Part shown: one piece after another, positions 1 through 17,407 of the stretch | How the letters are laid out: every line of letters begins with the position of its first letter | Numbering within the stretch: position 1 is the stretch's first letter | Source: a virus | Virus record (IMG/VR): IMGVR_UViG_3300045738_000129 | Span: 1 to 20,497 of that record | DNA length: 20,497 nucleotides | Strand: one strand, 5' to 3' | The notes under the pieces: generated by a model | Database searches by the model: none | The model's input: only the letters and a program-made list of their open reading frames with translations | What the model was told of the DNA's origin: nothing | Program-made: the position numbers and the translations under genes

Positions 1-1653
1 AGTACCGATTACTATGCGATAGCGTCTGCCAGCAACTAGTCCGCTTGCCACCGAATAATATAACCCACTTGTGCCGCTTGATGCTGAAGTAAATTGCAGA
101 ACATTGCTCGCAACACTAATGTCAGTTATGTTCCCGTCCGTATTCCAAACATAAGCGTCATTGAAATCATCACGGTCATCCGAGTCATTGCCGCTATCCG
201 TTTGTGGGGTTCCCCAGTTTTGGTCAGCAGCAGCAGCAACCTTCTCACTCCCATACCTCCCCGAAGAAACGTGCAGGGTTCCGCTGGGTGAGGTTGCGTC
301 TGCTCCTATGCCGACTGTGCCAGCCGCTACCCTCAACCCCTTGCTCATACTGAAGGCTTCTTCGCTGTCATCCCAAGTCAGCTTGCCGCCCCCCGTAACC
401 CCGGTCATGTTAATGATCGTATGATCTTCGTCTGTACCGCTGTTGATATAGATACCACTCGTACCATGCAAAGTGAGGAGAGCCGTCCCAGCCGCCCCAG
501 CTAGACCCAATTTTCCCATTTGGAAATCACCCGTCTCCAACAACTTGGCTGGCTCAACGGCATCGTCGGCTAGTTGGAGGGTGTCTATGCCATCATCCTT
601 AACGTCCAATGCTTCGCTAGTGAGCGCAAACCTGTCGGTGTTGTAGGCAAAGTTAATCGTATTGCTCGACTTCGTAAGGGGCGCAGCAGTTGATCCGTTG
701 GACGTTACGCTGATGTTTCCTACCCCGGTAAACTGGGTGAAGGAGATGGATGACTGACCGATACGGGCTGTGTTGGCAGTAAAGCCAAAGCTGGAGGTCA
801 TTACCCATCCAACATTAATATTATCTGTACCATGAGTGACGAACAGGAAGTCACCCTTGTTGATCTGATCTGTGTTCCTGTATTCCTTCCAAGGTTGATC
901 CCCAATAACGGTAGCAGAAGCACCGCTTTTGGCTCTGGTAAGCACCCAAGGACTGCTTCCATCTGCACCCTTGGCTGTTACATCATAGATACCATTCTCG
1001 TAGGCCTCACTATTAGTGGTATCCCCCGCCCCAGAGGAACCAAGTCCCTGCCATCTCACCAAGATACGGTCACCATTGGCGACTGCAACTCCGTCAATCG
1101 ATAAGGCTCCATTGGCATCTGCCGTAATCGTGGAGTTATAGATGGCTGTATTGCTAACTGGGTCTGGTGTGGCGTTGGCATAGGTGGCATCCTTGCTGCC
1201 TCCCTTGGTCTTAAATTGTCCAGCGTAAGTCTGTGATAAACGGCAAGGCTCAAGAATGTTCAACCCCTGAACCGCTGCATCGACATAAGATTTGGGAGTC
1301 GCATGGGTTGGGTCCGTAGGGGTTCCTACTGCAAGTACCCCGCCTGTCCCGTAGTATGGAATCTTGGCATCAACAGCCGTAGCTGATGTATCCATACCAT
1401 CAAGCGTAATGGCATCGACAGCCGTGAGATTTACCTGAGAGGCTGCTATAGCCGAATCGGTAGTCAGGATGGTGGCATATGTCTCTGTGCCTGCGTCTAC
1501 GGTGGATACCTTTGGAAACCCAGCCGTGGTATTAAAGTAAACATGACCCTTGCCTACATTGGTAGGGTCATCATCTGTTGCCTCCAGCCTGAAGTTCTTA
1601 GTCTGCCCACCTCCCGAAAAGGTGTAGCCCGTAAAGATTTTCTTTTCTGCCAT
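1..1653 (-). CDS. Distal tail fibre protein, 5' part (runs off left edge)
   Basis: The frame starts at ATG 1653, two bases after the stop of the anchor gene, and stays open for 551 codons to base 1, so the C-terminus is missing. The product looks like a modular phage tail fibre. Residues 119-132 carry TPKSYVDAAVQGLN, a segment very common in phage tail proteins. Residues 220-241 have the NGIYDVT ... PWVLTRA pattern of fibre repeat domains. Residues 445-462 have a GTVGIG ... SPSGTLHV element, typical of fibre shafts that often end in a self-cleaving chaperone; that end would lie outside the window. An acidic stretch (about 486-499) precedes a beta-rich segment that could bind a ligand. Its role would be receptor recognition, attached to the tail through the anchor protein encoded just before it. 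No strong ribosome site is visible, so translation is probably coupled to the upstream gene. The tail-fibre call is fairly sure; receptor and C-terminal fold are unknown. Confidence 0.85.
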   Translation of the reverse strand, partial: MAEKKIFTGYTFSGGGQTKNFRLEATDDDPTNVGKGHVYFNTTAGFPKVSTVDAGTETYATILTTDSAIAASQVNLTAVDAITLDGMDTSATAVDAKIPYYGTGGVLAVGTPTDPTHATPKSYVDAAVQGLNILEPCRLSQTYAGQFKTKGGSKDATYANATPDPVSNTAIYNSTITADANGALSIDGVAVANGDRILVRWQGLGSSGAGDTTNSEAYENGIYDVTAKGADGSSPWVLTRAKSGASATVIGDQPWKEYRNTDQINKGDFLFVTHGTDNINVGWVMTSSFGFTANTARIGQSSISFTQFTGVGNISVTSNGSTAAPLTKSSNTINFAYNTDRFALTSEALDVKDDGIDTLQLADDAVEPAKLLETGDFQMGKLGLAGAAGTALLTLHGTSGIYINSGTDEDHTIINMTGVTGGGKLTWDDSEEAFSMSKGLRVAAGTVGIGADATSPSGTLHVSSGRYGSEKVAAAADQNWGTPQTDSGNDSDDRDDFNDAYVWNTDGNITDISVASNVLQFTSASSGTSGLYYSVASGLVAGRRYRIVIGT

Positions 1654-1654
1654 T

Positions 1655-2338
1655 TTATCTAAATTCCGCTGTTGCTGATGCTGGTGACGATCCTGAGAAC
1701 GTCAGTCTGGTTACAGATGTGCTCACATGGGTCACCTCACAATCCAGTTGCACACCGGGAGTGCTCCCTTCAAATATCTGTACCACGGGATGGTAACCAA
1801 GATTGTGTGTCACATCATGCAATTGTTGTCCCCCCACTAGAGAGGTGGTAAACGATGTCCTAAGACGCGAGACATCATCAGAAAGCTGGTCAGGGATAGC
1901 AAGGATATCTTCACGGGTATCCGAGAGGTCATCCTCAATCTCCTGTTCCCTGAACAAGCTGTACCTATTGGAGTTATCAAGGTCAGCTTCTGTCAGGGGT
2001 GCTCCCCCTTGAAAGTCTACAAAGTGAGTCAGCTTAGGTGTGGCTCGCTTTACATAAAGATAATAAGTTGCCGTTGGCGTCAGGTTCATGTTGTTGGTTG
2101 AGGCAAACTCATGGCTAAGGTCCAAGGTATAATCGTTGCCAAGGGATAACGCCGAGACATCATCGGCATCTATGTCTGCCGTGAATGCCGTAAGGGTTTG
2201 ACTATTCGCAGAGATACGAAACTCAAGGTGAGTCTTGGCCAGATAACCAAAATTAATATTATTAGGATTACTGACTGTATGGGTCAGGACACCTGACTCA
2301 TTCGTTGTGGCTGCTGCGTAGTATCTGGAGTATCTCAT
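1655..2338 (-). CDS. Tail fibre anchor/adaptor, T7 gp17 N-terminal type
   Basis: This 227-residue protein matches the N-terminal tail-attachment domain of T7 gp17-type fibres. FGYLAKTHLEFRI (residues 30-42) corresponds to the gp17 'F-x-YLA-x-x-x-V' strand. RATPKLTHFVDF followed by LTEADLD (98-121) and EQEIEDDL (131-138) is the hallmark end of that domain. A short helical, coiled-coil-like stretch follows (about 128-160). The last 55 residues, with HNLGYHPVVQIFE at 178-190, resemble a small beta domain common at the ends of phage tail proteins. In T7 one long polypeptide holds anchor, shaft and tip. Here the anchor ends after 227 residues and the next gene supplies the fibre, so this product probably docks on the tail and carries a second protein. 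The start ATG shares an ATGA overlap with the preceding gene's stop. Confidence 0.9.
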   Translation of the reverse strand: MRYSRYYAAATTNESGVLTHTVSNPNNINFGYLAKTHLEFRISANSQTLTAFTADIDADDVSALSLGNDYTLDLSHEFASTNNMNLTPTATYYLYVKRATPKLTHFVDFQGGAPLTEADLDNSNRYSLFREQEIEDDLSDTREDILAIPDQLSDDVSRLRTSFTTSLVGGQQLHDVTHNLGYHPVVQIFEGSTPGVQLDCEVTHVSTSVTRLTFSGSSPASATAEFR

Positions 2339-5300: not shown

Positions 5301-7218
5301 TCTTCCTCATGTTAATCATAAAGAAGTGCATCAAGCGGGAAGAAAAATACTTCTGACCGGCATCAGTCAGGGTTCCATCAATGTTCATGACCTTGGTGGC
5401 CTTCAACAATAAATCATCCATTCCCTTGCCCTTGCCTTGGGCAGCTAACTCAAGCTGACGAGCTATGTACTTAGCATCCTTGGAACCACCCTTGAACAAC
5501 AGATCATCCATTATCTTCTGATCAACCGTGAGGTGCTCAAAGCCGGGGATGGCATCGAATTCATATTTCCAGAGATTTCCTATTCCCTTTCGTTTCAGGG
5601 TATTGGCAGCATGAATATCAAGCCTGTTCTGGTAGGCCTTCTCACCCTTGACCTTGGAGAATTTAATCTTGGCCTGATGTCTTGCTATTAACCACGCCTC
5701 GTATTCCGCAGCGTTGTTGAAGGCATCACGGGCTATCTTGCTTTTGCCATAACGAGGCGCACCCTTCTTGGTTACACCTAAGAATTCGGATGGCAACAGG
5801 TCACCCGTAACACCCCAAGCCTTGGCAACCAACTCCTGATTAACCAGAACCTCGGCATCGTTGGCCCCTCTAATTATAATATCTACAGCCTTGTTCCCCT
5901 TGACAGTCTTGGTAATGGGAGGTGCGAAATCACGGTTATGTAGGACAGGCTTGCCTTCATAGACAGCCGTGTTCAACCCTGTAGCTGGGTCTACTGGCCC
6001 ATCTCTGGGAACAAGATCATCATCCCACTTGTGTGGAACCAACTCTGTCTCCTCTGCTCTCGCATTCAGGTCACTCTTCTTTGCATCAACAGCATCTAAA
6101 GCTTCTTCATGTTTTGAGACTTCCTTGCTAAGTTCTGATTCCTCCTTGGCAACCTTGCCAAGAACTTCATCATCAATATTGGTATCCATGCGAACTTGCT
6201 TGCCGGGAGTGGCAAAACTAAGTTCTTCCTCTCCGATCTTAACCTTCTCTGCTTCGCTAAGACCCGCCTTTTCTGCCCTAGCTGCTGTTCGTTCGGCTCC
6301 CTTAATGGCTTTCTTGCTGCCTCCTTCGGCTCCCTTTATAAGCAGGCCATCCCTAAGCCAAGCCAGTTTGATGGACTGCCAGAACACATTAAAGAAACCG
6401 TTTAGAACAGCACCTTCAGTAGCATACATGCCCCGCCCACTAAGGTTGTGCCATGCCCTACCCATTCGGGTTGTTGTTTCAGCGGTAAGCTCCTCGTTGG
6501 TCATTCGTTCCCAACCGGGAATAGTCGTGATATCTCTGTAGGCATCCTGAAGCTCCGGGTTACTCTGGAAGAAGGACATCAATAAACTATGGTCCCCGTC
6601 GAAAGCCGAGAAATCCGCAATGTATCCCCTTAAGACACCATCAAGTGTATGAGCCTTTACTTTGCCGAAACTTGAAATACGATTTCCTGTTTTCCAATCA
6701 ATCCCCTTTCTGGCCAGTTCTCTCTTTCGCACACCCTGCGTAAACTTGTCGGCAGCTTTTGCTCCTCTAACAACCTTAAGACCTTTTGTGGTGGCCCCCA
6801 CTACAACTCTTCCAACAGGCCCACCAAGCGGTAAGCCGGTAACAAACTGTGTGATGCCGCTGGTTACATCTAGAAATATCTGACCACCCTTAGTGTCAGC
6901 CTGACGTCGGACCATCGGCTGAAGATCAAACCGGGACTCCTGTCCCGCTAAGTCACCCGGAACGTTGGCTATGTTGGTGATACCCTCAAAAGCACCATAA
7001 CCTATGGATGCGCCAAACTTTGTGAATGGACCCTCCTTGTTTCTGGCAGCAGCCCTCCAATCATATTCGCTATTGGTGTACTGCTCCTTGAGTCTCTGCA
7101 TGTTATTGAAGTTGCGCTGCTCTGTGCTAGTCGCTCTTCCATACGTTTGCGGCTCAAACCCAAAGTTGGGGAGACGGCCTTCCTTTTGAAGCTTCTGTAT
7201 TTGTGTCTGGTCGCTCAT
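2335..7218 (-). CDS. Giant internal virion / DNA ejection protein, gp16 position
   Basis: A 1627-residue protein in the place of T7 gene 16 (T7 gp16 is 1318 residues). Proteins of this class leave the virion first and line a channel for DNA across the envelope. Visible parts: a Gly-rich hydrophobic segment at about 108-148, a highly charged Ala/Glu/Lys helical region at 302-391, a hydrophobic helix near 922-945, a DELFKQVSFRASAMARL segment near 1050, and ILMPFIRTPVNLLKF around residue 1215. The last is a motif I associate with large ejection proteins of marine podoviruses. Another hydrophobic helix lies near 1273-1298. I see no transglycosylase motif of the kind found at the N-terminus of T7 gp16. 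Its ATG overlaps the upstream stop as TAATG, so expression is probably coupled. The role rests on position, size and the C-terminal motifs; the central 400-900 region is unrecognised. Confidence 0.8.
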   Translation of the reverse strand: MSDQTQIQKLQKEGRLPNFGFEPQTYGRATSTEQRNFNNMQRLKEQYTNSEYDWRAAARNKEGPFTKFGASIGYGAFEGITNIANVPGDLAGQESRFDLQPMVRRQADTKGGQIFLDVTSGITQFVTGLPLGGPVGRVVVGATTKGLKVVRGAKAADKFTQGVRKRELARKGIDWKTGNRISSFGKVKAHTLDGVLRGYIADFSAFDGDHSLLMSFFQSNPELQDAYRDITTIPGWERMTNEELTAETTTRMGRAWHNLSGRGMYATEGAVLNGFFNVFWQSIKLAWLRDGLLIKGAEGGSKKAIKGAERTAARAEKAGLSEAEKVKIGEEELSFATPGKQVRMDTNIDDEVLGKVAKEESELSKEVSKHEEALDAVDAKKSDLNARAEETELVPHKWDDDLVPRDGPVDPATGLNTAVYEGKPVLHNRDFAPPITKTVKGNKAVDIIIRGANDAEVLVNQELVAKAWGVTGDLLPSEFLGVTKKGAPRYGKSKIARDAFNNAAEYEAWLIARHQAKIKFSKVKGEKAYQNRLDIHAANTLKRKGIGNLWKYEFDAIPGFEHLTVDQKIMDDLLFKGGSKDAKYIARQLELAAQGKGKGMDDLLLKATKVMNIDGTLTDAGQKYFSSRLMHFFMINMRKTFVDPKSDQLAKAIGWLADPQAMTPKDHLINDVINHINNIADTNSMNPRMVMERFRKGYGDYKELFPELKVPAKDVEKSLMEDASVMKELYIRTWAYRLDQVVSMTNFQKLNKKIADGAKGSKFFVEYLRELKKLEAKLTAFQKLRTATGRALAAHKSLEIDKNLGGNMKKMREEIINRGGGKEGLQKLATRVQAVIDQGKEAADLLEAGRMGATEAGMGGAKKLLNKTITGVDIHNEYWLNSILSSFKTQAVNTIGTALHLTWKPLEGLLGTQGSAYTKKYFRQNLLYSAIITAETLKLLTILGMNKLRHGIKGAGDEAYHEGRKAVFGKATHGAGALAGARKAFRSGKPTLESRSALFDLQPEVAITGDILPDGIANSEFLGAPVGRLAQDMMNWAGKMIRLPSRFMISTDELFKQVSFRASAMARLTAEGFEHYEKQGIRATKEQLSNYAGTRFQGLVRKSGSRYTPDILEDEAWAMYTQAVRHANDSGEPLPKEYGTRDDFIVKYVDQNYDSKRSTLSDYAMENAEDVTFTRQLDQDFKVLQEHGRLGSFATSVQKEVQDIVGRHGFLRILMPFIRTPVNLLKFPLQRFPIAPGQGTIDKMAGNGGLMKRFHMRYQADMLSGDAIKMAEARGRIATGMFMYTGLGFLAASGVVTGAGPQDARQRRTKMATGWKPYSIQVGNKYISYQRLDPFASVLGMSADIAEFLEEADRLGDFDKEWAHTLMLSGVYSISNNILNKSYLAGLTTVLQAGMNPAGKQEYFDRLVEKQLTSYIPKAFSQFTPLTDDPMVKATYDLMDSMKAQIPGFAGSVEPRRNLMGEPVTKMDDNLAARASSLFNPFPYATIKNDEVLDNLAFLNYGFTPMDPKLSNQPFLDMRDFKDSDERTAYDYWQERVGKTKISGRTLRETLMKLFRHSTYRKASELSDRPEWPLGSDDPRVKWVSGIMQRYRAKSKMETLKRYPELLEAFSRYKSTQRRNLNFSLTR

Positions 7219-10200
7219 TATTTATTAATCATTAACTCAACCTCTTTAGCCATGAGTTCTTCAGCTATAAAGGACTCGATCTGAGGGGATGCCCTTAAGG
7301 GCAGAGCCAAGGGATGAACATTAAAATTCTTTAAGAACGGATGAGAATCAAAACCATCTGAAAGCACCATGCCTTTCAGCAAAGTGTTATAGGCACGGGC
7401 CAAGTCTGGACTCTTAAACTCTGCCTTCTTGCGCTCCTCCCAACTCTTGGAGGCTAAGAGAGGCTGACTACTATAGACATCTTTTCCCGGTAGGAGAGAA
7501 GGCGCAGCGACACCATCAACAAAGTGGACGCTATTTGGTTTTGACATCTTAACCACAACATCCTCCTTGCTGCCTCCACTTAAGAGATTAAAATATTGAT
7601 GAAAGCGGTCATCGAATTCCTTGCTACGAAAACGATCTGCTGTATCTGCCATACCGAATGTAAAGAGTTCTAACATATCAGCTAGGAACCCGCTTTGTCT
7701 CCTTTTGCCGCTTGTTGGTTCATAAAAATCTCCCCGTTGGCGTCGTTGTGCAACAAGAGGGGGAGGGTCGCCGCTGTCTGGTGACCAAGCTGGAACATCT
7801 GGTGAGACGCCCCCCCTTCTGCTCCTGCTCCTCGGAATCTTGGAAGATTCAGGAGCGTACTTCCAACGTGGATCATTAGGATGCCACACTTCATTAGCCT
7901 TAGCTTTAAAGTCTATGAAGGGATTAAACTTACGAGCCGAAAGCAAAGGCTTCTCATAACCCATGTCAGCCAAGGTAAGCTCAAAGGCCACGACCGTTTT
8001 CATAGGTCCAAAGCCCCCTGAAGCGTAGTCCTCTGACGTAGGCGACTCGTAATCAAACGGCACGAGAAATGTGCCGCTTTGTCCTACCATCCCCGGTGTA
8101 GAAGTATAAGGAAAACCCATACTAAAGGCTTTAGTAATCTGGTTACCTGATAGACCCGCATAGAGTCTGTAGAAATCTTTAAGAGTTACTCCATCTTCAA
8201 CATCCAAGCCTTCGTTTGCTATACGCTGATTGTTGGTGAGTATTGAGCGAACATGCCCCGCTTGTTGAGGAGAATATTCTTCACCAGCATATTGAAAATT
8301 CTTACCGGAAGGAACCTTGTAACCCGTGTCTGCCCATTGGTCAGACTCAAAGAAATTCTTAAACGTCTGATCCTTGATGGCCATTTGCTCTGCACCGGGA
8401 AGAGCATCAGTATCATGGGCAATCATGTCAGCCCTCCAAGCCTGTGAAGCCTTGCCTAGCTTGCGTATGGCGTCCTCCCTGATGTTGCGGTTATCGCTAA
8501 GGATTTGTATACCGCCTGCCGAGAGAACCCCTGCAAATTGTTTAAACCTTTTCCATTGGTCTGTCTCCTTGAGAGCGTCAAAAGCTGCTTGATCTCCCTC
8601 GGTTATCGCTTCGTTTAATGTGCTGAAGGTAGAATTTAGTTCCCCAAGTTCGGCCCAGTTGTCCACTATGCGAACCTCTGGAAAGGATATCCCCTCGTTA
8701 AACGGAAAGATTTCAATACTCTCCTCCCTGTCGCCTACCTCCATTGAGTATTGTCTGTTGAAAAAGTATGCGTCTCCATCAGAGTTGGTTAGATTTTTAT
8801 AATCAAAACTCTCGTGCTCCTTTATCAACCGGATATATTGGTTTTTAAGATTAAGCTTCTTGGCTACTTCTTCATGATATTTCTTGGCTTTTTCCGGGTC
8901 TTCAAGCTGACCACCTAATGACCTGACCATTTTGGCGTTGGCAACCAAGGCTGTGGAAAGATCGCGTTTAGTCTTATCAACATACTCACGAACCATCTGT
9001 TGTTCCTTAAGGAGCTCATCGCCTTTAGGACCCATGTAGGCTTCAACGGCAACATTGTGCTGTTGTCCTTCTGGAACAGAGAGTGTCTCTATGTCTTGCT
9101 GTGTGTTGCCTTCAAGGATTTTCCCGGCCGTTTCGCGGCTGTGGTCCCGCATGACTATGTGGGTCGAAGCCTGTGTATCTGCGGAAGACCCTTCATCAGT
9201 CGTGGTGGTTCGCGTTGAGCCATCCGGGTTTACGACGGAGTCGGCATCAGGAGCATTTGGATCAGTCCGTTGCTTAAGAAGGCCTGATTGGAGAGGAATC
9301 TGTGTATCCAGAAAACGTTCCAGCCCATCTTTAATCTCCTCCAAACCAAATTTATTAAACTCAACCGCTAGTTCAGTAGGATCAGTTATTCCCGTTGCTC
9401 TGGTTTTATCGAGCCAATTCTGAGCGAGCTTCGCTCTTTCTTTGGCCATCTCCGTAAGCAGCGCATTAACAGCCATGACTGCTGGAGCCATCTCTGCTAT
9501 ACTCGCACGAACAACTGCTCCTTCTGGGTGTAATAGTGCGCCAGCAGCACCGCCTATAGCAAATGGGTCCCCCGGTGTACGAATGTCTGACTTAGATTGT
9601 AGATAGAGATCGATGCCGTTCGTATAAAAATCTTCATCCTGCTTGCCCTTATTTATTAATATATCAAGATTCTGATACTGGGTTGGGTGTCCCGTCTCGG
9701 TGAAGATATACTTAACCTCTTGCTGTTCATCAATGCGACTTAGAAGAGCCCTTCCCGCTTGGTCTAACTTCTCGTCCCCATGAATGTTCTCAAAGATAGA
9801 GTTGCGTATCCACTCCTCTGCTCCCTTTGGAACTATACCCGTATTCTCCATTTCAGAGGAAATCTCTTTGTACTTGTTGTGAGTAAAGACAAGAGCTTCA
9901 GGGACAGCCTCGGTATCGGAGAAAAATTTTCTATCCAAAAACCCTCGCAACGCACCCTGCAACTGTAGTGTGCTCTTATTGTAATTAGGATGCCGTTGAC
10001 GGTATAGCTCCTCCAAGGTCAGGTAGGTTCCATCAGCTTTCGGATAGGCCCCGCCTTCCTTGCTCTCTATTGTTGGATCATCTATTGGAACGTGGGCCTG
10101 TGGGTCAGCCATCAGGCGTCTAAGAAAAAGGTCCTTGTTCAGGCCCCCGCCAATAATCAGCGGCATATACTGATCCCTAAAAGAACCAGCGATACTCTGT

Positions 10201-11567
10201 AGATAGGGGTCTTGGTTAAAGGTAGCGTCCATAGCACTATTAAAAGCTAACTGGGCTGTACCTTTGTTATCATATTCCTCTGCCGCAAACTTGTTCATCA
10301 GGTTCTTAACAACCCTGATCTGGGTTCCCAGTTCGGTCCACATAGCCTGACTTCCTTCGCCGCTATCCATCAGGCTCTGAACATAGGGGCTGTCTGCTGA
10401 AACAATATCCAGAAACTCCATGACGTTATGCCTGTCAACATCACGATATGAATTGATATTAATACCTGACAGCTTCTCCTGTACCTCTGGCTCAAACCCT
10501 CCTTCCCCGTTGTCTCCTAAGTCTTGTAGCAACCCCTGAAATGTTTCCCGAAACTCTTTCTGTTCTGTTGCTCTTCGGTTGGAGGAGGCTCTGCGACGGT
10601 TCTCTGTTGTCTCTGCTGCCTTGGCATACCAAAGCAATGCTTCTTGCTTAAAGTTTCCCCATAGTTCCGTGCTGCCTTTCTCTGTGGTCCGACGCATGGA
10701 GCCTACCTTCCGGTAGATTTCAGTTAGCTCATCAACATCAATGTCTTGGTTTTCCAATGCCAACTCAAAGACAGGGGTAATAATATTCGACCAGAACTCT
10801 CTATTATAAGTTATTCCCTCCTTCTTGCTTATAGCCCACGGACCATACAGCCCCTCATAGGCTTTCTCTTTAAAGTTAGCTAGTGATTGTTTGGTTCCAT
10901 CGGCTGTAATGACATCAGTTAACAGGTTACGCGCTACCTTAATACCCGCCAGCCTGACCGCTGACTTCTTACGTTGGTCCCAGAGATTGACATAAACTTC
11001 ATTTCTCTTCTTTGCTCCTTCCTCATAGGCAGGGTCATAGCCTGTTCTAAAATATTTACTAACCCGTTTATCGGGGTCCAGCCTCTCGATAGCCTGACCC
11101 ATGATATGGTCTTCCAGAAGCTGTGGAAAATCCTCTGCATCCTTGTTCTCGTTGATCCAATCTTGGGTTTCTTTTTGGCGATAAATCTTATCTAAATCTC
11201 GCGGAGCTTCGGTTGCTCCTGTAAATTTTATAGCCGCTGAGTAAAGCGCAGGGTTCCCCCAGCGAACCCCATCAATCTTGTCAAGTGCTTCGCTGATCTC
11301 AAGAGTCGTATCCTTTACAGCAGCTTGAAGTGCCGGTACTTGCTCCATTGCCGCCTTCTGTGCATAGCCGGTACGAGCAGAGAGAGCCCTGAGCCCCGAC
11401 ACGTTGAACATCTCAAGGCCTGTCGCCAGTTGACTTAACGGCTCCTGTCCTTGAGCCGGGGCTGCTGCACCAATTGCAGTCAGAGGCTCAATGGGTCTGG
11501 CCTTCTGATATTTAGGAACTCCTAATACATCGATGGCATCTGGAGCAATTCTGGTTCTTTTAGCCAT
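7218..11567 (-). CDS. Large internal virion protein, gp15 position
   Basis: A 1449-residue, mostly helical, charged protein in the place of T7 gene 15 (747 residues), starting directly after the gp14-like stop (TAG then ATG). In T7, gp15 forms the middle of the internal core and helps build the periplasmic DNA tube. Two low-complexity stretches divide it. An Asp/Thr/Ser-rich linker lies at about 765-806, and a Pro/Arg/Ser-rich linker with RSRSRRGG and DPPP lies at 1238-1293. The part before the first linker is about the size of T7 gp15; the remaining 640 residues look like added modules. No signal peptide or recognised catalytic motif is visible. Assignment is mainly from synteny, size and composition; sequence likeness to T7 gp15 is not obvious by eye. 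Confidence 0.75.
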   Translation of the reverse strand: MAKRTRIAPDAIDVLGVPKYQKARPIEPLTAIGAAAPAQGQEPLSQLATGLEMFNVSGLRALSARTGYAQKAAMEQVPALQAAVKDTTLEISEALDKIDGVRWGNPALYSAAIKFTGATEAPRDLDKIYRQKETQDWINENKDAEDFPQLLEDHIMGQAIERLDPDKRVSKYFRTGYDPAYEEGAKKRNEVYVNLWDQRKKSAVRLAGIKVARNLLTDVITADGTKQSLANFKEKAYEGLYGPWAISKKEGITYNREFWSNIITPVFELALENQDIDVDELTEIYRKVGSMRRTTEKGSTELWGNFKQEALLWYAKAAETTENRRRASSNRRATEQKEFRETFQGLLQDLGDNGEGGFEPEVQEKLSGININSYRDVDRHNVMEFLDIVSADSPYVQSLMDSGEGSQAMWTELGTQIRVVKNLMNKFAAEEYDNKGTAQLAFNSAMDATFNQDPYLQSIAGSFRDQYMPLIIGGGLNKDLFLRRLMADPQAHVPIDDPTIESKEGGAYPKADGTYLTLEELYRQRHPNYNKSTLQLQGALRGFLDRKFFSDTEAVPEALVFTHNKYKEISSEMENTGIVPKGAEEWIRNSIFENIHGDEKLDQAGRALLSRIDEQQEVKYIFTETGHPTQYQNLDILINKGKQDEDFYTNGIDLYLQSKSDIRTPGDPFAIGGAAGALLHPEGAVVRASIAEMAPAVMAVNALLTEMAKERAKLAQNWLDKTRATGITDPTELAVEFNKFGLEEIKDGLERFLDTQIPLQSGLLKQRTDPNAPDADSVVNPDGSTRTTTTDEGSSADTQASTHIVMRDHSRETAGKILEGNTQQDIETLSVPEGQQHNVAVEAYMGPKGDELLKEQQMVREYVDKTKRDLSTALVANAKMVRSLGGQLEDPEKAKKYHEEVAKKLNLKNQYIRLIKEHESFDYKNLTNSDGDAYFFNRQYSMEVGDREESIEIFPFNEGISFPEVRIVDNWAELGELNSTFSTLNEAITEGDQAAFDALKETDQWKRFKQFAGVLSAGGIQILSDNRNIREDAIRKLGKASQAWRADMIAHDTDALPGAEQMAIKDQTFKNFFESDQWADTGYKVPSGKNFQYAGEEYSPQQAGHVRSILTNNQRIANEGLDVEDGVTLKDFYRLYAGLSGNQITKAFSMGFPYTSTPGMVGQSGTFLVPFDYESPTSEDYASGGFGPMKTVVAFELTLADMGYEKPLLSARKFNPFIDFKAKANEVWHPNDPRWKYAPESSKIPRSRSRRGGVSPDVPAWSPDSGDPPPLVAQRRQRGDFYEPTSGKRRQSGFLADMLELFTFGMADTADRFRSKEFDDRFHQYFNLLSGGSKEDVVVKMSKPNSVHFVDGVAAPSLLPGKDVYSSQPLLASKSWEERKKAEFKSPDLARAYNTLLKGMVLSDGFDSHPFLKNFNVHPLALPLRASPQIESFIAEELMAKEVELMINK

Positions 11568-12149
11568 CTATGATCCTTTTATATCCCCAAACCCACCTGA
11601 GTAATATGTTGATACCCCACCAAGCATGCTGGCTCCTGTTTTCAGGGCGTAAGCAGCGGGAGAGGGGTGGTTGACAGGGCGAAAGGTCGAAACCTGTTTG
11701 CCCCTAAAGTTTGCTGCTGATCTGTCCAGAGCCCTTTGCATTCTTGCGGTTGCCGTGTGATCACCAAGAGTAAGGGCATGGCTTAACTGAGCTTCCTGTC
11801 CATAATATTCCTGCATCAAGGCATCAATGGAATGTCCCGTTAATCCTGACGCATCTGCCGAGGCCTGAGCCTTGGACCTAGCCAGCATAGCTTTATTCTG
11901 GAGCTTCTCCTGCTCTGCTGCCGTGGCTAACTTAGCCTCCAGATCAGAGTTAACCTTGTCAGTCAGATCAGCCGCCTCTTGTTTGGTCAACTCCTTGCTG
12001 ACGTCCCGCTGATATTGCTCCTGTTTCTTGGCTGCTTGTTTCTGGGCAGAAAACTGGGCCGCACCGCTGGCAGCACTAATGGCCAGCGAGGCCACCATCA
12101 GAAGCATGGGGTTACAGGCTAATATCGGTATAAGTTCTATTTCCATCAT
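11568..12149 (-). CDS. Internal virion protein B, gp14-like
   Basis: At 193 residues it is close to T7 gp14 (196) and sits in the same place. A hydrophobic, Ala-rich N-terminal segment (about residues 7-31, including ACNPMLLMVASLAISAASG) is followed by a long Gln/Ala/Lys-rich helix. A Gly/Ser-rich tail with a second mildly hydrophobic patch (172-187) ends the protein. This layout fits gp14, which inserts in the outer membrane as the first pore of the ejection apparatus. The start ATG at 12149 lies 38 nt inside the end of the gp13-like gene; a second ATG is the very next codon, so the start may be one residue later. Function is inferred from layout and synteny. Confidence 0.85.
   Translation of the reverse strand: MMEIELIPILACNPMLLMVASLAISAASGAAQFSAQKQAAKKQEQYQRDVSKELTKQEAADLTDKVNSDLEAKLATAAEQEKLQNKAMLARSKAQASADASGLTGHSIDALMQEYYGQEAQLSHALTLGDHTATARMQRALDRSAANFRGKQVSTFRPVNHPSPAAYALKTGASMLGGVSTYYSGGFGDIKGS
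11574..11580 (-). promoter_or_regulatory. Ribosome binding site for the gp15-like gene
   Basis: Minus-strand AAAAGGA lies 6 nt before the ATG at 11567, inside the last codons of the gp14-like gene. It supports that ATG as the real start and independent loading of ribosomes despite the abutting stop codon. Confidence 0.6.
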
Positions 12150-12666
12150 ATCTTATAAACATTATGAACTTTCTACGTTGCACCCCATACTTAGGGAACT
12201 CGTGAACGAAGTCAAACTCCAGCCAGTTAAGCCAAGCAACGTGAAGCTTGTTACGCGCATCAATGACATTATACAATAAATCATAACTTTCATGCAGCTT
12301 CTTTAGCCATTTCCTTGAGTGTCTAAGAAAGGTGAAGGAGTAGGCAAGGAGATCATCAGTTCCGCACATCCAGACCACGCCGACATCGGGATAGTCAGAT
12401 TCACGGACACCAAAGATTCCACAAGGTCTTCCGGTTGAGGTGATCTTGATCGTAAAGCAGGGATTGGAGGTGGACACTCCATCTTCAAGGACTCGTAAAG
12501 GACATTGGTCCGTGCTGGCAGAAATTTCGTCTCTGTCAGCTTTCCGCAAGTGTCGCTCAACATGTAAAACATCTGCTTTGGAACTATGTTCAACATATAA
12601 TCCTTTGTAATCCCAACGTTTCTTATCCGGTCCAACGCGCTCCTCTTGAATAGACGTTTCCTTCAT
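12112..12666 (-). CDS. T7 gp13-like virion assembly protein (GNAT-like fold)
   Basis: With the ATG at 12666 the product has 184 residues. It shows the T7 gp13 pattern: an N-terminal VLHVERHLRKADRDEI segment (33-48), an acceptor-like ISASTD ... GIFGV core strand (to about 86), then VVWMCGTDDL (97-106). Next come a basic helix, SRKWLKKLHESYDLLYNVIDARN, and a final WLNWLEFDF hairpin. The NVIDARN-x-x-HVAWLNWLGF-type ending is the usual form of acetyltransferase-like gp13 relatives. In T7 gp13 is needed for assembling the internal core; whether this protein acetylates anything is unknown. The frame could open at a TTG at 12711, but the ATG gives a shorter overlap (44 nt) with tubular protein B and is preferred. 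No clear ribosome site precedes either start, suggesting translational coupling. Confidence 0.8.
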   Translation of the reverse strand: MKETSIQEERVGPDKKRWDYKGLYVEHSSKADVLHVERHLRKADRDEISASTDQCPLRVLEDGVSTSNPCFTIKITSTGRPCGIFGVRESDYPDVGVVWMCGTDDLLAYSFTFLRHSRKWLKKLHESYDLLYNVIDARNKLHVAWLNWLEFDFVHEFPKYGVQRRKFIMFIRYDGNRTYTDISL

Positions 12667-15600
12667 AGTCAAAGCTAAGAAAATCTGCGGGGTAGGGCGA
12701 GGTGTTCTCAATGTCTATTGAAATCCTGTCGTTCCTACCCATGATACCAAAGGTGTACGCCCCTTCAGACAGCGTGTCTGCTCCTATAACTGCTGATGCG
12801 TACCCCAACTCAACGCCAGTAAAGCTGTAACTATTCGTGGTGGTAACATCCTGTGGATAATGTGTGACCTTGACATCAAACTTTTTAGCTCCTGAAAACT
12901 CTAGGGTTCCCCTTGTTAGCTGGAATCTCCCACCCAAGAGGACCCCTCGACCTCCGGTTCCTGTGTTCTTTCTAAGGTGTGGACGAGAGAGCGTGTATTT
13001 AAAATCATAAGGCTGACCTATGAAAAACGTTGTTGCCTTGAGATTGACCCCCGCAAACGTCGCAACATCTGTTGTTAAGGTTGCAGTCGGATGCCTTCCA
13101 CCAGCAATCGTTACCACCTCAACCTTCTCCTTGGCAGTAGGTGTGTAGTCAAGTGTTACAGAACTGATGCCTGTGTTTGAGTCATAGGTAACATTCGAGG
13201 CTGTTGTACCATCGATAAACTGTCGCCTATCCAGAAGGACCTGATAATCAAGTCCCGTATCTTTCTGGTCATCCTCAAAGACTAGGGATTCTATTACCAC
13301 CAGATCGTTTCGCTTGATAACAAGATAAAGCGTGTTGGCAATGAATCGAAGGGCCAGAATCTTATCGTCGCTGTCGCCTACAACATACTTGGACCATGCT
13401 GATTGGGTCTTCTGTCCCTGAGCATCTAGAAAATATTTATAAATATAAACAACAGCCTGAGTTGAATCATCAGTTAAAACTACAAGTACCTTTTCCTCTG
13501 GACAGGAAGCCATTGAAATCACCTTGCCCGATATGTATTTCGGGATGTGAGCAGATATGTCTCTGGATTCCATCGCTTCTATCTGGTCCTTGGAAACAAA
13601 GTATTCAGAAACAGCCCCAAATTCAGACCTTGGGTAGGTAAAGAATATCATGCTGCCTGCGTTTATGGGTTTGGTTACCACAGAATTCTCAAACTTCGAG
13701 GTGGTAGCCAGTTGAACTGTCTTTGGGGAAAAGAAAGGCTCTCCCGTGAGGGCGAACTGGGCTTGTGAGCTAAACAAAAGCAACTGATTGGAGAAGGGGA
13801 TCGCATGGTTCAGCTTGGAGACTGCGGTGGTTGACGTACCAACATCGATGGGAGCGGTATCCAGCAGCGCAGCGACGGTTGACCTGAACAGGTTGAAGTG
13901 TTCGCCTGATTCACTAAGTATGACGCTCTCGCCTGACAGGAATCCAAGCCTGTTCTTATAAAGAAAGATATCAGTAAGAGGTTTGTGGGTGAACGAGGGG
14001 AAAGGATTGGTTTGATTATCTCCAGCCTGTCGGTATCTCCACGGGCTTAGTTTTAAAGAGAAAAACCTATTCCCGTCTGCATCATATTCTCTTGTCAATA
14101 CGACGGGCAGGGTTCTCGGATCAAACGCTGCTTTTTGCCCATAACCCAAGCATTCTTTCCACGTTCCGTTCTGCAAATCATGGTTTTTGGGATTATTACC
14201 ATGAAATTTCAAGTAGTAGTCATCAGCCTCCTCCCGTGCATCGCCAACAACCCGGACCACATGGCCGTGCTGACATATTTCAGGGAGCTTGGATGCTTCA
14301 GAAACTTCAGTATAAGTCAGGGTCAAGCCGTTCCCACCCATGTCATCATCCACGGTGATATCAAATTTAATATTTTCCGGGTGTCTAATGGCCACCACGT
14401 TACCTCTTTGCCGAATGTCCCACGGCCTCTCAGCACCGGAAAGAAACTCATGGTCACCTGAAGCTCTTCTCACTCCCCCACCAAAAGCGTCTAACCCGAT
14501 AGCCTCCTCTTCCATGTCAGCGTGATAAAGTCCGTCCACAATAGGACGCCCATCAGGTTTCTTGGGGACAACAATGCCGCGATTTACAAGCGCACCATCA
14601 TTGTCAACTTTCTTGTTACCGCCATTAATGATTATTGCGTCACTAGATAATGCTTCTGCTATGCGTTGAGTTCCAATAGGTGCTTGATCATCTTTCTCTC
14701 CTGTCCATCGAGGAGATTTATAATAAAATTCCCCATCATAAACCGTTCTCTTTGGAGAAAACTCCGTAACTGGAACTGTTCCCCGACCATCAGTAGTGTA
14801 TGCTAGGCTTCTATTTAAATACTGAAAGGTCATTCCACTTGTGGCGAGGGTTCGGGTCACTAACCCCGGAACAAAAATAAAAGTCCAGAACCAACCTCCT
14901 ACCAGATGGCTATAGGCCCACGGAGAGGCGGCGGTTCCACCATAGTATTCGGTATCACGCCCAAAAGTCATGTCTCCCCAACTCCATTCCGATTGCGACA
15001 TCGATATAAAATCGGCATGTACTTCTATTTTTAAAAAGTGCCAATCCTCATCGTCATGCCCCACCACCGTATCAGAATCAAACCCAGCCTCTCCTTCCAC
15101 CAGCCCTGCTTCGTCACAAGGAAGCATCTCCCAGTTTTCGTTGAATTCAGCAAGACTGTTCGCGTAGGTAACCAGTTCTGTTACCGTGGTGGTAGCCTTG
15201 TGCTTATTTTTATAGTCCCCACCGTGTTTTGCCCAAGGAAAGTTCACCCACATGACAAACTCTTCCGGGTCTCTGTAACAATCTATCGCTGCCCTAAAGT
15301 TCTTATGCACATGTCGCTTGACATCTTGAAAAGGTTCCATGTTGTCCCTTCCAGCTTGCTTGGTGTTCTCCAAGTTAAGGACATCCCTGTGAAAACCGTG
15401 CCAATACCAAGCGGTTTGGGGGTCCTTCGACTTAGCCTTTCTAGCTTCCTTTCCCGGTGGAACATCGTATGACCCCTTATAATCCCACCAGCCTTTTGTT
15501 TTGCTGGAATTTCCGTCCTGTCCGTGACCATACCAGTTCTGAGCCAAACGAAACTCAAACCTATTCCACTCGAACCCTAGTTTTTTTGCCCGAATTTTTA

Positions 15601-17407
15601 CAACCTTGCGAGGGAGATCGTTCCCAGCGGTATTGCCGTAAAAGAATGTCTCGGATTTTTTAGCCACAACATCGTTTGGATCAGCAGCATCTAAAGTAAC
15701 AGTCTCTTTGCCCACATACACCCTGTAATATTTGCCATAGTCAGCCTGCATAATCGTCAGGAAAGCCTGATTGCTTTTGTATTCAGGATAAGGTTCGTAT
15801 GAAGAGTCTCGTACTGAGATGGTTTTATTGAGAAGGAAAGTGGTGTCACCTACGGTTACCGCCCTTAAATCTGAAGAGGGATCATCAATATCCATGAGAT
15901 ATTGCAAGGCACGTTGGTCGATATCCCCGGCTAAAGGAATCTTTGCGCCTGTCTGAAGATCATAAACAAAAGGACCGGACCCCTTCTTGGATTGAAAGGC
16001 TGTATACGTTACATCATCCGTCCCAATCCAAGCATACTCCCCGTCAGTCGTGTTATCTCCTGAAGCTGATTCCCTGTAGTCAAGCTCATCGGGACATCTG
16101 GTGCTGTAGTCACTCTTTCGGGACCAGAACCAAAGATTAATAATATTATCCTCATCACTCCACGCATCAAAATAGTCTCCTGTTCCGTTTGCGTTAGCAT
16201 CATACTTCTCTATACCAGCAGAAGCTTGAGTCTGCGTAGTCGAAGGGATGAGAACTATTTTACCCGTTCCCGCTGCACCAGCAGTAACGCTTTTAATGAT
16301 GGCACGTTGATTCTTATGATGACTACCCAGCTTAACAAGTTGTCCCGGCTTTAAGGTAGCAGCCCTCGCAGCACTAAGGGTTCCATATTCGATGTCCAGA
16401 GACCAATCATCCAAGGACCACTCAAGAGCACCTAAGTCCGTGCCAGAATCATAAGCAATACTGCCATCTCCAAGCTGTGTCCAACCAACAAGACCAGAGG
16501 CTCCGTTGCTTGGTCCATCCTGATAATAATTATCACTTGGGCCAGTAAGCCAGAACTTGTTAGCTGTCTCACCTGTAGACAAAGCATCGCCACCTATGGT
16601 TTTGATGGTTGTATCGTCCGGTGCTTTCTTGGTGAGGAACGCTGGGCCTCCGCTCTTTACCAAGTAACGGGACAGCCCAGACAAATCATTAATATGAATC
16701 TCGTCCCCCTCCACATAGGTATGACCTATTCCAGATGTTACTGATTGAAAGCGAACGGTTATAACCCCATCAATCCAGCTACCATCAATTTCCGAGTTAG
16801 CGTTGTCCGTTACCTTTACAGACTCAATAAGGAGACCGGCTTTATACTGGTCATCAGTAGCACCAAACTCAGCATCAGTAAGCTGAACCTGTCCTACCGT
16901 CAGGGCCGTCCCACCGCTTGTTGTGGCCACCTGAAACTTGTGGGTATCGGGACTCGTGCCAGTATCAACAGAGGTATTGACTATGTAATAGTCCGTACCT
17001 GTCTTGATACCATTGAAGGTGTCTAAAAGTCCTTCTATAAAAAACGAAATCAGTTCACCATTAGAAACCAAAGCGGAATCAGATTCATCCGGGTTTTGGT
17101 AGGAGAAGTACCAAGCAGCACTCTGCGGGTTTCCTAAATCAACCTCCAGCCGTAGGTTTTTATTGATTACCACCGCATACTGCTCCTGCTCGTCCCTGTT
17201 AATAATATGCAGGAAGCTGGATGTCGCATCATCGGGATGGACGTCAATACTATTTAAATGTTTGGTTGGTGGACGCTTGACCAGCCCCTTTATGTGAGAG
17301 GAGTACCCGTTGATCTGCTCAACAGCCTGCGAAGGGTGACGCTGGGACTCTGCTTGTTGGCTGACCCCCTGTGAAAGGCTTGTGATGGCATACTTCGTAT
17401 AGGGCAT
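12623..17407 (-). CDS. Tail tubular protein B (nozzle), enlarged gp12-like
   Basis: The ends are clearly T7 gp12. Near the N-terminus LSQGVSQQAESQRHPSQAVEQ (11-31), GLVKRPP (41-47) and HIINRDEQEQYAVV (67-80) match gp12. Toward the C-terminus, LPEICQHGHVVRVVGD and DDYYLKF (1041-1068), PFSNQLLLFSSQAQFALTG (1204-1222), and TYPRSEFGAVSEYF (1257-1270) do so too. The protein forms the distal tail nozzle in six copies, bound to tubular protein A. It has 1594 residues against 794 in T7. The extra length lies mainly in two blocks, about 101-350 (beta-rich, Thr/Gly/Asp-rich) and about 600-1000 (rich in Trp, Tyr and His). Its ATG overlaps the stop of tubular protein A as TGATG. Confidence 0.93.
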   Translation of the reverse strand: MPYTKYAITSLSQGVSQQAESQRHPSQAVEQINGYSSHIKGLVKRPPTKHLNSIDVHPDDATSSFLHIINRDEQEQYAVVINKNLRLEVDLGNPQSAAWYFSYQNPDESDSALVSNGELISFFIEGLLDTFNGIKTGTDYYIVNTSVDTGTSPDTHKFQVATTSGGTALTVGQVQLTDAEFGATDDQYKAGLLIESVKVTDNANSEIDGSWIDGVITVRFQSVTSGIGHTYVEGDEIHINDLSGLSRYLVKSGGPAFLTKKAPDDTTIKTIGGDALSTGETANKFWLTGPSDNYYQDGPSNGASGLVGWTQLGDGSIAYDSGTDLGALEWSLDDWSLDIEYGTLSAARAATLKPGQLVKLGSHHKNQRAIIKSVTAGAAGTGKIVLIPSTTQTQASAGIEKYDANANGTGDYFDAWSDEDNIINLWFWSRKSDYSTRCPDELDYRESASGDNTTDGEYAWIGTDDVTYTAFQSKKGSGPFVYDLQTGAKIPLAGDIDQRALQYLMDIDDPSSDLRAVTVGDTTFLLNKTISVRDSSYEPYPEYKSNQAFLTIMQADYGKYYRVYVGKETVTLDAADPNDVVAKKSETFFYGNTAGNDLPRKVVKIRAKKLGFEWNRFEFRLAQNWYGHGQDGNSSKTKGWWDYKGSYDVPPGKEARKAKSKDPQTAWYWHGFHRDVLNLENTKQAGRDNMEPFQDVKRHVHKNFRAAIDCYRDPEEFVMWVNFPWAKHGGDYKNKHKATTTVTELVTYANSLAEFNENWEMLPCDEAGLVEGEAGFDSDTVVGHDDEDWHFLKIEVHADFISMSQSEWSWGDMTFGRDTEYYGGTAASPWAYSHLVGGWFWTFIFVPGLVTRTLATSGMTFQYLNRSLAYTTDGRGTVPVTEFSPKRTVYDGEFYYKSPRWTGEKDDQAPIGTQRIAEALSSDAIIINGGNKKVDNDGALVNRGIVVPKKPDGRPIVDGLYHADMEEEAIGLDAFGGGVRRASGDHEFLSGAERPWDIRQRGNVVAIRHPENIKFDITVDDDMGGNGLTLTYTEVSEASKLPEICQHGHVVRVVGDAREEADDYYLKFHGNNPKNHDLQNGTWKECLGYGQKAAFDPRTLPVVLTREYDADGNRFFSLKLSPWRYRQAGDNQTNPFPSFTHKPLTDIFLYKNRLGFLSGESVILSESGEHFNLFRSTVAALLDTAPIDVGTSTTAVSKLNHAIPFSNQLLLFSSQAQFALTGEPFFSPKTVQLATTSKFENSVVTKPINAGSMIFFTYPRSEFGAVSEYFVSKDQIEAMESRDISAHIPKYISGKVISMASCPEEKVLVVLTDDSTQAVVYIYKYFLDAQGQKTQSAWSKYVVGDSDDKILALRFIANTLYLVIKRNDLVVIESLVFEDDQKDTGLDYQVLLDRRQFIDGTTASNVTYDSNTGISSVTLDYTPTAKEKVEVVTIAGGRHPTATLTTDVATFAGVNLKATTFFIGQPYDFKYTLSRPHLRKNTGTGGRGVLLGGRFQLTRGTLEFSGAKKFDVKVTHYPQDVTTTNSYSFTGVELGYASAVIGADTLSEGAYTFGIMGRNDRISIDIENTSPYPADFLSFDYEGNVYSRGARWTG

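Follow-up and report, generated by a model that had tools for sequence, protein, structure and literature searches.

A giant tail nozzle lies within a T7-like row of virion genes

The window, i.e., the whole 20,497-nucleotide stretch of viral DNA analysed here, carries its virion genes in the order capsid, adaptor, nozzle, (gp13) gp14, internal proteins and gp17, with the gp13 match lying below the cut-off and gp15 assigned by position (Table 1). The position of the gp13 gene is conserved in locus L006, and the gp15-position protein has no Pfam match. A TGA codon that had been flagged in the RNA polymerase as possible recoding looks like the stop of that gene, after which the next one begins, and this candidate was set aside.

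Table 1. Positions and assignment of the genes and nozzle segments in the window
Feature	Positions	Strand	Basis
Giant tail nozzle (gp12/tail tubular protein B homologue), 1594 aa	12623..17407	-	ATG start; PF25675; phmmer
Nozzle residues 1-84, N-terminal strip and blade 2 strands A, B, T7-like	17156..17407	-	phmmer, model
Insert 1, residues ~85-478, ~394 aa, beta-rich, blade 2 B-C loop	15974..17155	-	alignments, model
Nozzle residues 479-570, rest of blade 2, blade 3 strands A, B, tip start, T7-like	15698..15973	-	phmmer, model
Insert 2, residues ~571-893, ~323 aa, inside nozzle tip domain	14729..15697	-	alignments, model
Nozzle residues 894-1055, remainder of nozzle tip, T7-like	14243..14728	-	PHROG 457, VIA alignment
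Nozzle residues 1056-1594, rest of propeller, fibre dock, platform, T7-like	12626..14242	-	PF25675, phmmer
Stretch homologous to the block exchanged between L010 and L012 (codons ~50-1050)	14258..17260	-	transferred by homology
Tail tube A/adaptor (gp11 homologue), 272 aa	17407..18225	-	PF17212, E 1.2e-34
Major capsid protein, 410 aa	18275..19507	-	PF21703, E 3.6e-51
gp13-position gene, 199 aa, TTG start as listed	12112..12711	-	PF11090, E 0.021, under cut-off
gp14-like internal virion protein	11568..12149	-	PF24072, E 1.6e-20
gp15-position protein, 1449 aa	7218..11567	-	position only
gp16-like internal virion protein, 1627 aa	2335..7218	-	tblastn, annotated internal virion protein D, E to 2e-42
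Short gp17, anchor-only protein, 227 aa	1655..2338	-	PF03906, E 1.4e-8
Second fibre gene, cut by record end, 551 aa seen	1..1653	-	open frame; L096 match

The 1594-aa protein is a T7-type tail nozzle. It matches the Pfam family Phage_nozzle (PF25675) in three stretches at 638.8 bits against a cut-off of 27, and phmmer aligns it with T7 gp12 (6r21) at an E value of 1.2e-89 over residues 6-91 (T7 6-91), 507-569 (T7 109-174) and 1010-1588 (T7 225-790); the PHROG 457 match spans residues 893-1591. The first-pass annotation had the frame, its coordinates and its strand right, and these matches bear out the gp12 framework that it had recognised. The window nozzle has this whole framework in common with T7 gp12 (PDB 6r21, 9jyz; PF25675), yet it is twice as long, with one insertion in the B-C loop of blade 2 and a second inside the tip. 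In other words, two extra domains built into the nozzle's outer end account for its doubled size. Both had been spotted at first pass, though with wrong borders and sizes, at residues 101-350 and 600-1000 (about 250 and 400 aa) instead of those in Table 1. The nozzles of the cyanophages P-SCSP1u (8i4m, 806 aa) and P-SSP7 (match span 2868 bases), marine T7-like members of the same family, are also much shorter.

The inserts are modelled as separate modules

An AlphaFold2 model was obtained for the N-terminal 1110 residues, and the C-terminal 484 residues were compared by sequence only. The model is partly confident (mean pLDDT 68.4, pTM 0.44, with 226 of 1110 residues below 50). Both inserts were modelled only as parts of this piece, neither being folded alone with an alignment; a single-sequence prediction of insert 2 reached a pLDDT of 31. 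Model residues 63..1109 superpose on T7 gp12 63..317 with a Z score of 14.5 and 2.4 Å over 250 residues (VIA alignment), leaving both inserts looped out. Strands A and B of blade 2 are found at residues 65-70 and 76-81, and the T7-like stretch between the inserts contains strands at 480-483, 514-519 and 522-527. Within its partial confidence, the model supports both inserts as separate beta-rich modules, in line with the earlier proposal of extra domains near the tail tip, and a simple elongation of the propeller does not appear in it.

The tip that holds insert 2 grows from the B-C loop of blade 3, and B-C loops of neighbouring propeller blades lie on one face. Insert 1, leaving from the blade 2 B-C loop, and insert 2, within the tip, would both project at the propeller's outer end. 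In T7, the nozzle tip leaves via a blade-3 loop and is the most distal part, as described in PMC6702177. Assuming that the nozzle is hexameric like that of T7, its six subunits would ring the mouth of the DNA channel with twelve modules, adding ~4300 residues per virion.

A Foldseek search of the 1110-residue model against the PDB ranks nozzles first and returns no match spanning an insert; among viral models, the best named rows belong to further tail tubular proteins B, of which several measure 838-1091 aa. The fold matches of insert 1 mostly have Z scores of ~5-6, a range that the structure-comparison tool calls common: 74-80 residues within 83..478 weakly match E1 FCCH-type barrels (Z 5.5-6.4), and 308..436 weakly match riboflavin synthase and T5 pb9 barrels (Z ~5). 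Such small beta barrels occur widely among phage tail proteins. The E1 FCCH profile PF16190 reaches its cut-off in none of 20 insert 1 members (one at E 0.13). Insert 2 has one weak fold match (Z 6.6), which pairs residues 583..873 with a neck chain of phiCD508 (9gb5_e).

Neither insert matches a known family

Domain searches of both blocks, as suggested at first pass, returned no known carbohydrate-binding or receptor-binding family for either insert. The phmmer and profile searches against the PDB gave unrelated rows only (e.g., antibody light chains and NADPH-quinone reductase). Among 50,697 phage records, the tblastn matches of insert 1 were limited to three rows at chance level (E 4), and insert 2 had no match. 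PHROGs matches to 20 insert 1 members are scattered over one or two members each, the best being to an unnamed family (E 1.4e-4, one member of 20). Single-member Pfam matches of insert 2 to EHN (E 0.0046) and N1221 (E 0.0063), each in one member of 20, were taken as chance, and an origin of insert 2 by internal duplication, considered from a resemblance seen by eye, was dropped.

The first-pass annotation had raised the possibility that the extra domains degrade a surface polymer. A position at the tail mouth would suit such an enzyme, and the matches of insert 1 include the barrels of GH110B and phi92 endosialidase, albeit over 73-79 residues only and at Z ~5-6, in the same common range. However, no glycosidase, lyase or peptidase family passes the Pfam cut-off in any of 20 members of either insert. 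Across 21 members, the only invariant acids of insert 1 are D213 and D297, and insert 2 has none, with E893 at its very edge in 20 of 21; its pairwise identity of about 25% is also low for a conserved active site. Polymer degradation by either insert is therefore unsupported and highly improbable. Invariant sites do occur in the inserts of these 21 members (D213, D297, R368, R445, R620 and R866), and part of the inserts is therefore constrained.

The crowding of Trp, Tyr and His reported for the middle block holds as a matter of composition. Together they make up 12.8% of insert 2 vs 7.2% of the C-terminal core (p 0.0055 against the whole protein, hypergeometric, uncorrected and for a block picked beforehand at first pass). 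A milder Trp excess in insert 2 is common to the members (1.6-4.9% vs 0.7-1.4% in the C-core, 20 sequences). The two quoted motifs, WYWHGFHRD and WFWTFIFVP, are private to the window protein among 20 aligned members, and so is most of the aromatic crowding on which the first-pass argument drew.

Giant nozzles recur in separate records

We compared 67 nozzle frames, i.e., 66 loci plus the window, 17 of which served to build the normal-size model and therefore necessarily match it. Of these frames, 23, window included, encode full-length nozzles of 1494-1679 aa with gaps against that model at both sites, and L148 is a further full-length giant nozzle beyond them. Both insert sites are conserved in this lineage of uncultured phages. 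In the alignments of 20 and 21 rows, from which near-duplicates and partial genes were excluded, insert 1 measures 361-446 aa and insert 2 260-387 aa (21 members). The genome-contig search yielded a single normal-size nozzle. Although the window is a single IMG/VR virus record, which might invite the suspicion of an assembly or annotation artefact, 23 full-length nozzles from separate records carry both inserts at the same sites; an assembly accident is therefore rejected as an extremely remote prospect.

Unrelated nozzles also have smaller inserts, both at these two sites and at others. L131, an uncultured P-SSP7-like nozzle of >1560 aa, has extra stretches of ~110 and ~400 aa at the same two sites, but belongs to another lineage and bears additional extra sequence elsewhere. 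It is an independent enlargement. A survey of literature titles and abstract openings found no description of giant nozzles or nozzle insert cassettes.

The inserts diverge fast and appear to be exchanged as a block

The inserts diverge faster than the rest of the nozzle. Among 20 giant nozzles, mean pairwise identity is 0.49-0.68 for residues 1-85 and 886-1594 (0.675 for residues 1-85), whereas it falls to 0.318 in insert 1 and 0.253 in insert 2. For close pairs, dN/dS is 0.46 in insert 2 vs 0.074 in the C region (L091/L098) and 0.75 vs 0.22 (L095/L096). Amino-acid changes are likewise concentrated in insert 2, with 15 of 298 codons against 4 of 722 (p 8.5e-6) and, in a second comparison, 67 of 299 against 67 of 716 (p 7.9e-8); for L007/L016, dN/dS in insert 2 is 2.9, on few changes.

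One pair shows an abrupt exchange. L010 and L012 share 94-99% nucleotide identity in the 1050 bases upstream of the gene and 99% over codons 1-50. In sliding-identity analysis, they drop to 41-68% over codons ~50-1050 and return to 77-100% up to the gene's end and 87-99% downstream. Their C-cores are 90% identical and their inserts 41% and 25%, while the two are otherwise ~97% identical. They are the only near-identical pair with a swap, and two exact-pattern scans for one like it found no third. Since the clean swap comes from one pair of metagenome contigs, it could conceivably reflect a chimeric contig; however, L011/L097 shows the same direction with a weaker contrast.

Trees point the same way. 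The core tree joins L010 with L012 and L011 with L097 (100/100 each), whereas the insert tree joins L011 with L012 (100/98). Core and insert trees reject each other in AU tests (p 6.5e-5, 1.3e-4, 1.1e-4 and 8.8e-7), run under a site-heterogeneous model on groups picked partly after viewing similarity tables and trees. Fast sites could account for part of the conflict. Exchange by recombination on a conserved backbone is clean in one pair and tree-supported in others.

Fast evolution might also be expected if the inserts merely brace or lengthen the tail mouth under relaxed constraint and play no part in host choice. The tips of ordinary nozzles, too, vary faster than their propellers (0.314 vs 0.444, 17 sequences), the smaller inserts of unrelated nozzles would fit structural bulk, and so would the lack of any matched ligand-binding family. 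Yet relaxed constraint does not make identity fall abruptly to 41-68% between flanks of 94-99%, nor does it yield well-supported trees that conflict, and both inserts are kept in 23 of 23 full-length members. We consider this explanation unlikely.

Fibre genes and insert types assort independently

Another first-pass suggestion was that additional fibres might be held by the extra domains; fibres of a different build could be held there as well. Such a platform could be needed because gp17 is reduced to a short anchor: its open frames measure 188-233 aa in all 14 matches among 18 giant-nozzle records examined (window included), the protein has 185-227 aa in 14 of 14 loci compared (again with the window), and separate fibre genes come after it. 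Among 22 comparison records, gp17 has 318-937 aa in 14 of 16 matches, and the other two (215 and 240 aa) lie less than 300 bases from the record end and look cut. According to PMC6702177, the fibre dock of T7 sits between the propeller end and the platform; this region is intact here by sequence, which argues against such a platform. Moreover, the second fibre gene of the window is 89.4% identical over 377 aa to that of L096, in the same place, whereas the nozzle inserts of the two are only 25% and 16% identical. Conversely, the anchors of L008 and L012 are 95.3% identical, and their inserts lie on opposite sides of the insert tree. Since the type of fibre and the type of insert assort independently of each other, fibre holding is disfavoured, and we regard it as rather improbable.

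A putative host-recognition cassette at the DNA gate

The recognised determinants of host range in T7-like phages are the fibres; the nozzle is regarded mainly as a conserved gate of the channel. That related viruses appear to swap the inserts as a block suggests a role in the choice of host cell. We infer from fast divergence, the cassette swap and the tree conflict, all read from sequence comparison, that the inserts probably form an exchangeable host-recognition cassette that is carried by the nozzle and works alongside the fibres; the depolymerase and fibre-dock readings are both less likely. Binding of a surface polymer by the inserts is plausible.

In such a scheme, the fibres, built from the short gp17 anchor and the separate genes, would make first contact. 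Once the tail stands on the cell, the cassette would then touch a variable ligand on its surface, for which a glycan or an outer-membrane protein is the likeliest candidate, and binding at the tip may help to commit the phage and open the nozzle gate. A further-reaching version, which we put forward tentatively as a possibility, is that the decisive exchangeable receptor-binding domains of this T7-like lineage of marine type might sit on the DNA gate itself; a co-inherited cassette of two modules, on neighbouring propeller blades, would couple recognition directly to gate opening, and the fibres would serve as an independently exchanged first-contact system.

Ordinary nozzles have been linked to adsorption. 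For the Acinetobacter phage vB_Ab4_Hep4, PMC10904470 describes a tail tubular protein B acting in host range and adsorption: a single substitution broadened the host range, and the protein, when expressed, competed for adsorption. It has an ordinary 761-763 aa and carries one substitution without an insert cassette. In T7 lines evolved against LPS mutants, gp12 changed, according to PMC6962156.

If the nozzle cassette is exchangeable, host choice in such phages would not be readable from fibre genes alone. With sensor and gate on a single polypeptide, the way in which receptor contact opens the gate would become testable. A pair of nearly identical phages with different versions of the exchanged block offers a natural experiment.

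A giant nozzle with two inserts characterizes a phage lineage

The window, the whole of a 20,497-base virus record, carries a T7-like phage virion module on its minus strand. The nozzle product matches the Pfam family Phage_nozzle at 638.8 bits, and T7 gp12 aligns to it in three collinear stretches, the gaps between which are filled by two inserts. The first-pass annotation had proposed two extra blocks, and both the count and the idea hold, but its borders (residues 101-350 and 600-1000) give way to those obtained from a profile, an alignment of 21 members and predicted strands. Pfam returned no hit over the cut-off, and no lytic transglycosylase domain, for the two large internal virion proteins.

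Features of the window's virion module and two nozzles from other loci
Feature	Position	Strand	Length (aa)
Capsid protein		minus	
Adaptor		minus	
Nozzle	12623-17407	minus	1594
Nozzle insert 1	residues ~85-478		
Nozzle insert 2	residues ~571-893		
gp13-position gene		minus	
gp14		minus	
Two large internal proteins	2335-11567	minus	1449 and 1627
Short gp17 (anchor)	within 1-2338	minus	227
Second fibre gene	within 1-2338	minus	
L131 nozzle, P-SSP7-like	2143-6846		at least 1567
L054 nozzle	7683-9692		672

Among 50,697 annotated phage records, none covers 80% of the window nozzle; the best rows reach 41-54% coverage at 28-36% identity with ordinary-nozzle spans, and the inserts searched alone gave no convincing match. 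Both inserts are present at the same two sites in 23 of the 67 IMG/VR nozzle frames examined, the window included (1494-1679 aa); locus L148 holds a further giant nozzle, and L016, L027, L122, L125, L126 and L127 hold partial ones. Marine Alphaproteobacteria phages are among the nearest relatives by capsid and gp16 searches, alongside others, all below 60% identity. The giant nozzle is no accident but a genuine variant of a known protein, found throughout a lineage; the first-pass annotation had its kind right and its details wrong.

Smaller enlargements occur at site 1 in L068 (~265 aa) and at site 2 in L042 and L048 (~110 aa), and the giant nozzle of L131, an independent enlargement, has its own inserts at both sites, ~110 and ~400 aa long; the two sites are therefore recurrent insertion points. 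Elsewhere, nozzles of ~1120 aa (L079-L082, L084-L086 and L119) have ~285 extra residues in the fibre-dock part, and most of the tip domain is apparently missing from the L054 nozzle, in which model position 143 jumps to 238.

Predicted position of the inserts

In T7 gp12, as described in PMC6702177, the propeller has seven blades, and the tip domain exits via a blade 3 loop as the most distal part; the protein also has a fibre dock and a platform. An AlphaFold2 model of window nozzle residues 1-1110 (36 rows; mean pLDDT 68.4, pTM 0.44) superposes residues 63..1109 on T7 63..317 in VIA-align with Z 14.5 and 2.4 Å over 250 residues, so that in the model the T7 framework is retained, with the inserts looping out. 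Insert 1 is preceded by predicted strands 65-70 and 76-81 and followed by 480-483, while the tip, which holds insert 2, is preceded by 514-519 and 522-527 and followed by 1064-1070. On the reading that these are the A, B and C strands in blades 2 and 3, both modules would exit the same kind of loop on neighbouring blades and hence, from general propeller geometry, would share the same distal face.

For insert 1 the structural matches were weak (Z about 5-6): the stretch 84..475 matched FCCH-type and elongation-factor barrels, and 308..436 matched barrels of riboflavin synthase and T5 pb9. Insert 2 (583..873) gave a single weak match, a neck chain of phiCD508 with Z 6.6. All of these lie within the range that the search tool rates common. 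Neither insert is placed in any family, and the depolymerase role suggested earlier found no support.

The inserts diverge rapidly and appear to be exchanged as one block

Across 20 giant nozzles, residues 1-85 have a mean pairwise identity of 0.675; the mean drops to 0.318 in insert 1 and 0.253 in insert 2, and past residue 886 it is 0.49-0.56. In close pairs the insert excess consists of amino-acid changes: dN/dS of insert 2 versus the T7-like C region is 0.46 versus 0.074 (L091/L098), 0.75 versus 0.22 (L095/L096) and, with few changes, 2.9 versus 1.5 (L007/L016). Four pairs are too close to judge (L014/L015, L013/L112, L121/L027 and L014/L125), and two are partly near saturation (L010/L012 and L088/L148).

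Loci L010 and L012 are 94-99% identical over the 1050 bases upstream of the nozzle and 99% over codons 1-50, fall to 41-68% over codons ~50-1050, and recover to 77-100% in the rest of the gene and 87-99% downstream. The closest inserts to those of L010 are in L102 (67% and 56%), and to those of L012 in L011 (52% and 32%). The core tree groups L010 with L012 and L011 with L097 (each 100/100), whereas the insert tree joins L011 with L012 and places L010 with L097, L102, L095 and L096 (each 100/98). AU tests on the inserts reject L010+L012 (p 6.5e-5) and L011+L097 (p 1.3e-4), and on the core reject the insert-tree groups (p 1.1e-4 and 8.8e-7). Between L011 and L097, identity likewise falls to 40-58% across bases ~600-2700, with flanks of mostly 60-86%. 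Insert 1, insert 2 and the intervening segment move as one cassette. A second stretch of lower identity (70-86%) lies ~1050-2100 bases upstream of the L010 and L012 nozzles, toward the capsid gene; other genes are therefore mosaic too.

Relation to the fibres and a predicted role in host recognition

Of 18 giant-nozzle records, 14 have a PF03906 match to a short gp17 (open frames of 188-233 aa; 185-227 aa from ATG), followed by further genes. In a non-random comparison set the profile matches 16 of 22 records with other nozzles, 14 of the frames measuring 318-937 aa and the other two, of 215 and 240 aa, being apparently cut by the record end. The other 13 loci in the comparison share the window's split into a short anchor and a separate fibre gene, and show two layouts: an anchor of 224-227 aa with a MAEKK/MANKK-type gene, or one of 185-193 aa with other genes.

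The first-pass annotation had also suggested that the extra domains hold additional fibres. The second fibre genes of the window and L096 are 89.4% identical over 377 aa with inserts only 25% and 16% identical, and the anchors of L008 and L012 are 95.3% identical, yet these loci fall on opposite sides of the insert tree's deepest split. Fibre type and insert type are unlinked, which speaks against the inserts as a dock for a particular fibre and weakens that idea.

The cassette most likely serves host recognition alongside the fibres, because a (predicted) exposed position, rapid replacement and exchange while the backbone stays constant are traits of adhesion modules; it would contact the host, beside the fibres, once the tail tip reaches the cell. 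The binding role proposed earlier, still a prediction, gains plausibility from the divergence and exchange, evidence absent from that annotation. Marine phages are described as varying in host-recognition genes, for which fibres and lectin-like proteins are named in a main text without the string "tail tub" (PMC3909814). A part for the nozzle in host range has precedents from experiments: chimeras reportedly need gp11 and gp12 moved with gp17, which is compatible with fibre docking too (PMC8234382), T7 evolved on LPS mutants is reported to acquire gp12 changes (PMC6962156), and Acinetobacter phage vB_Ab4_Hep4 provides a case with a substitution in its tail tubular protein B (PMC10904470).
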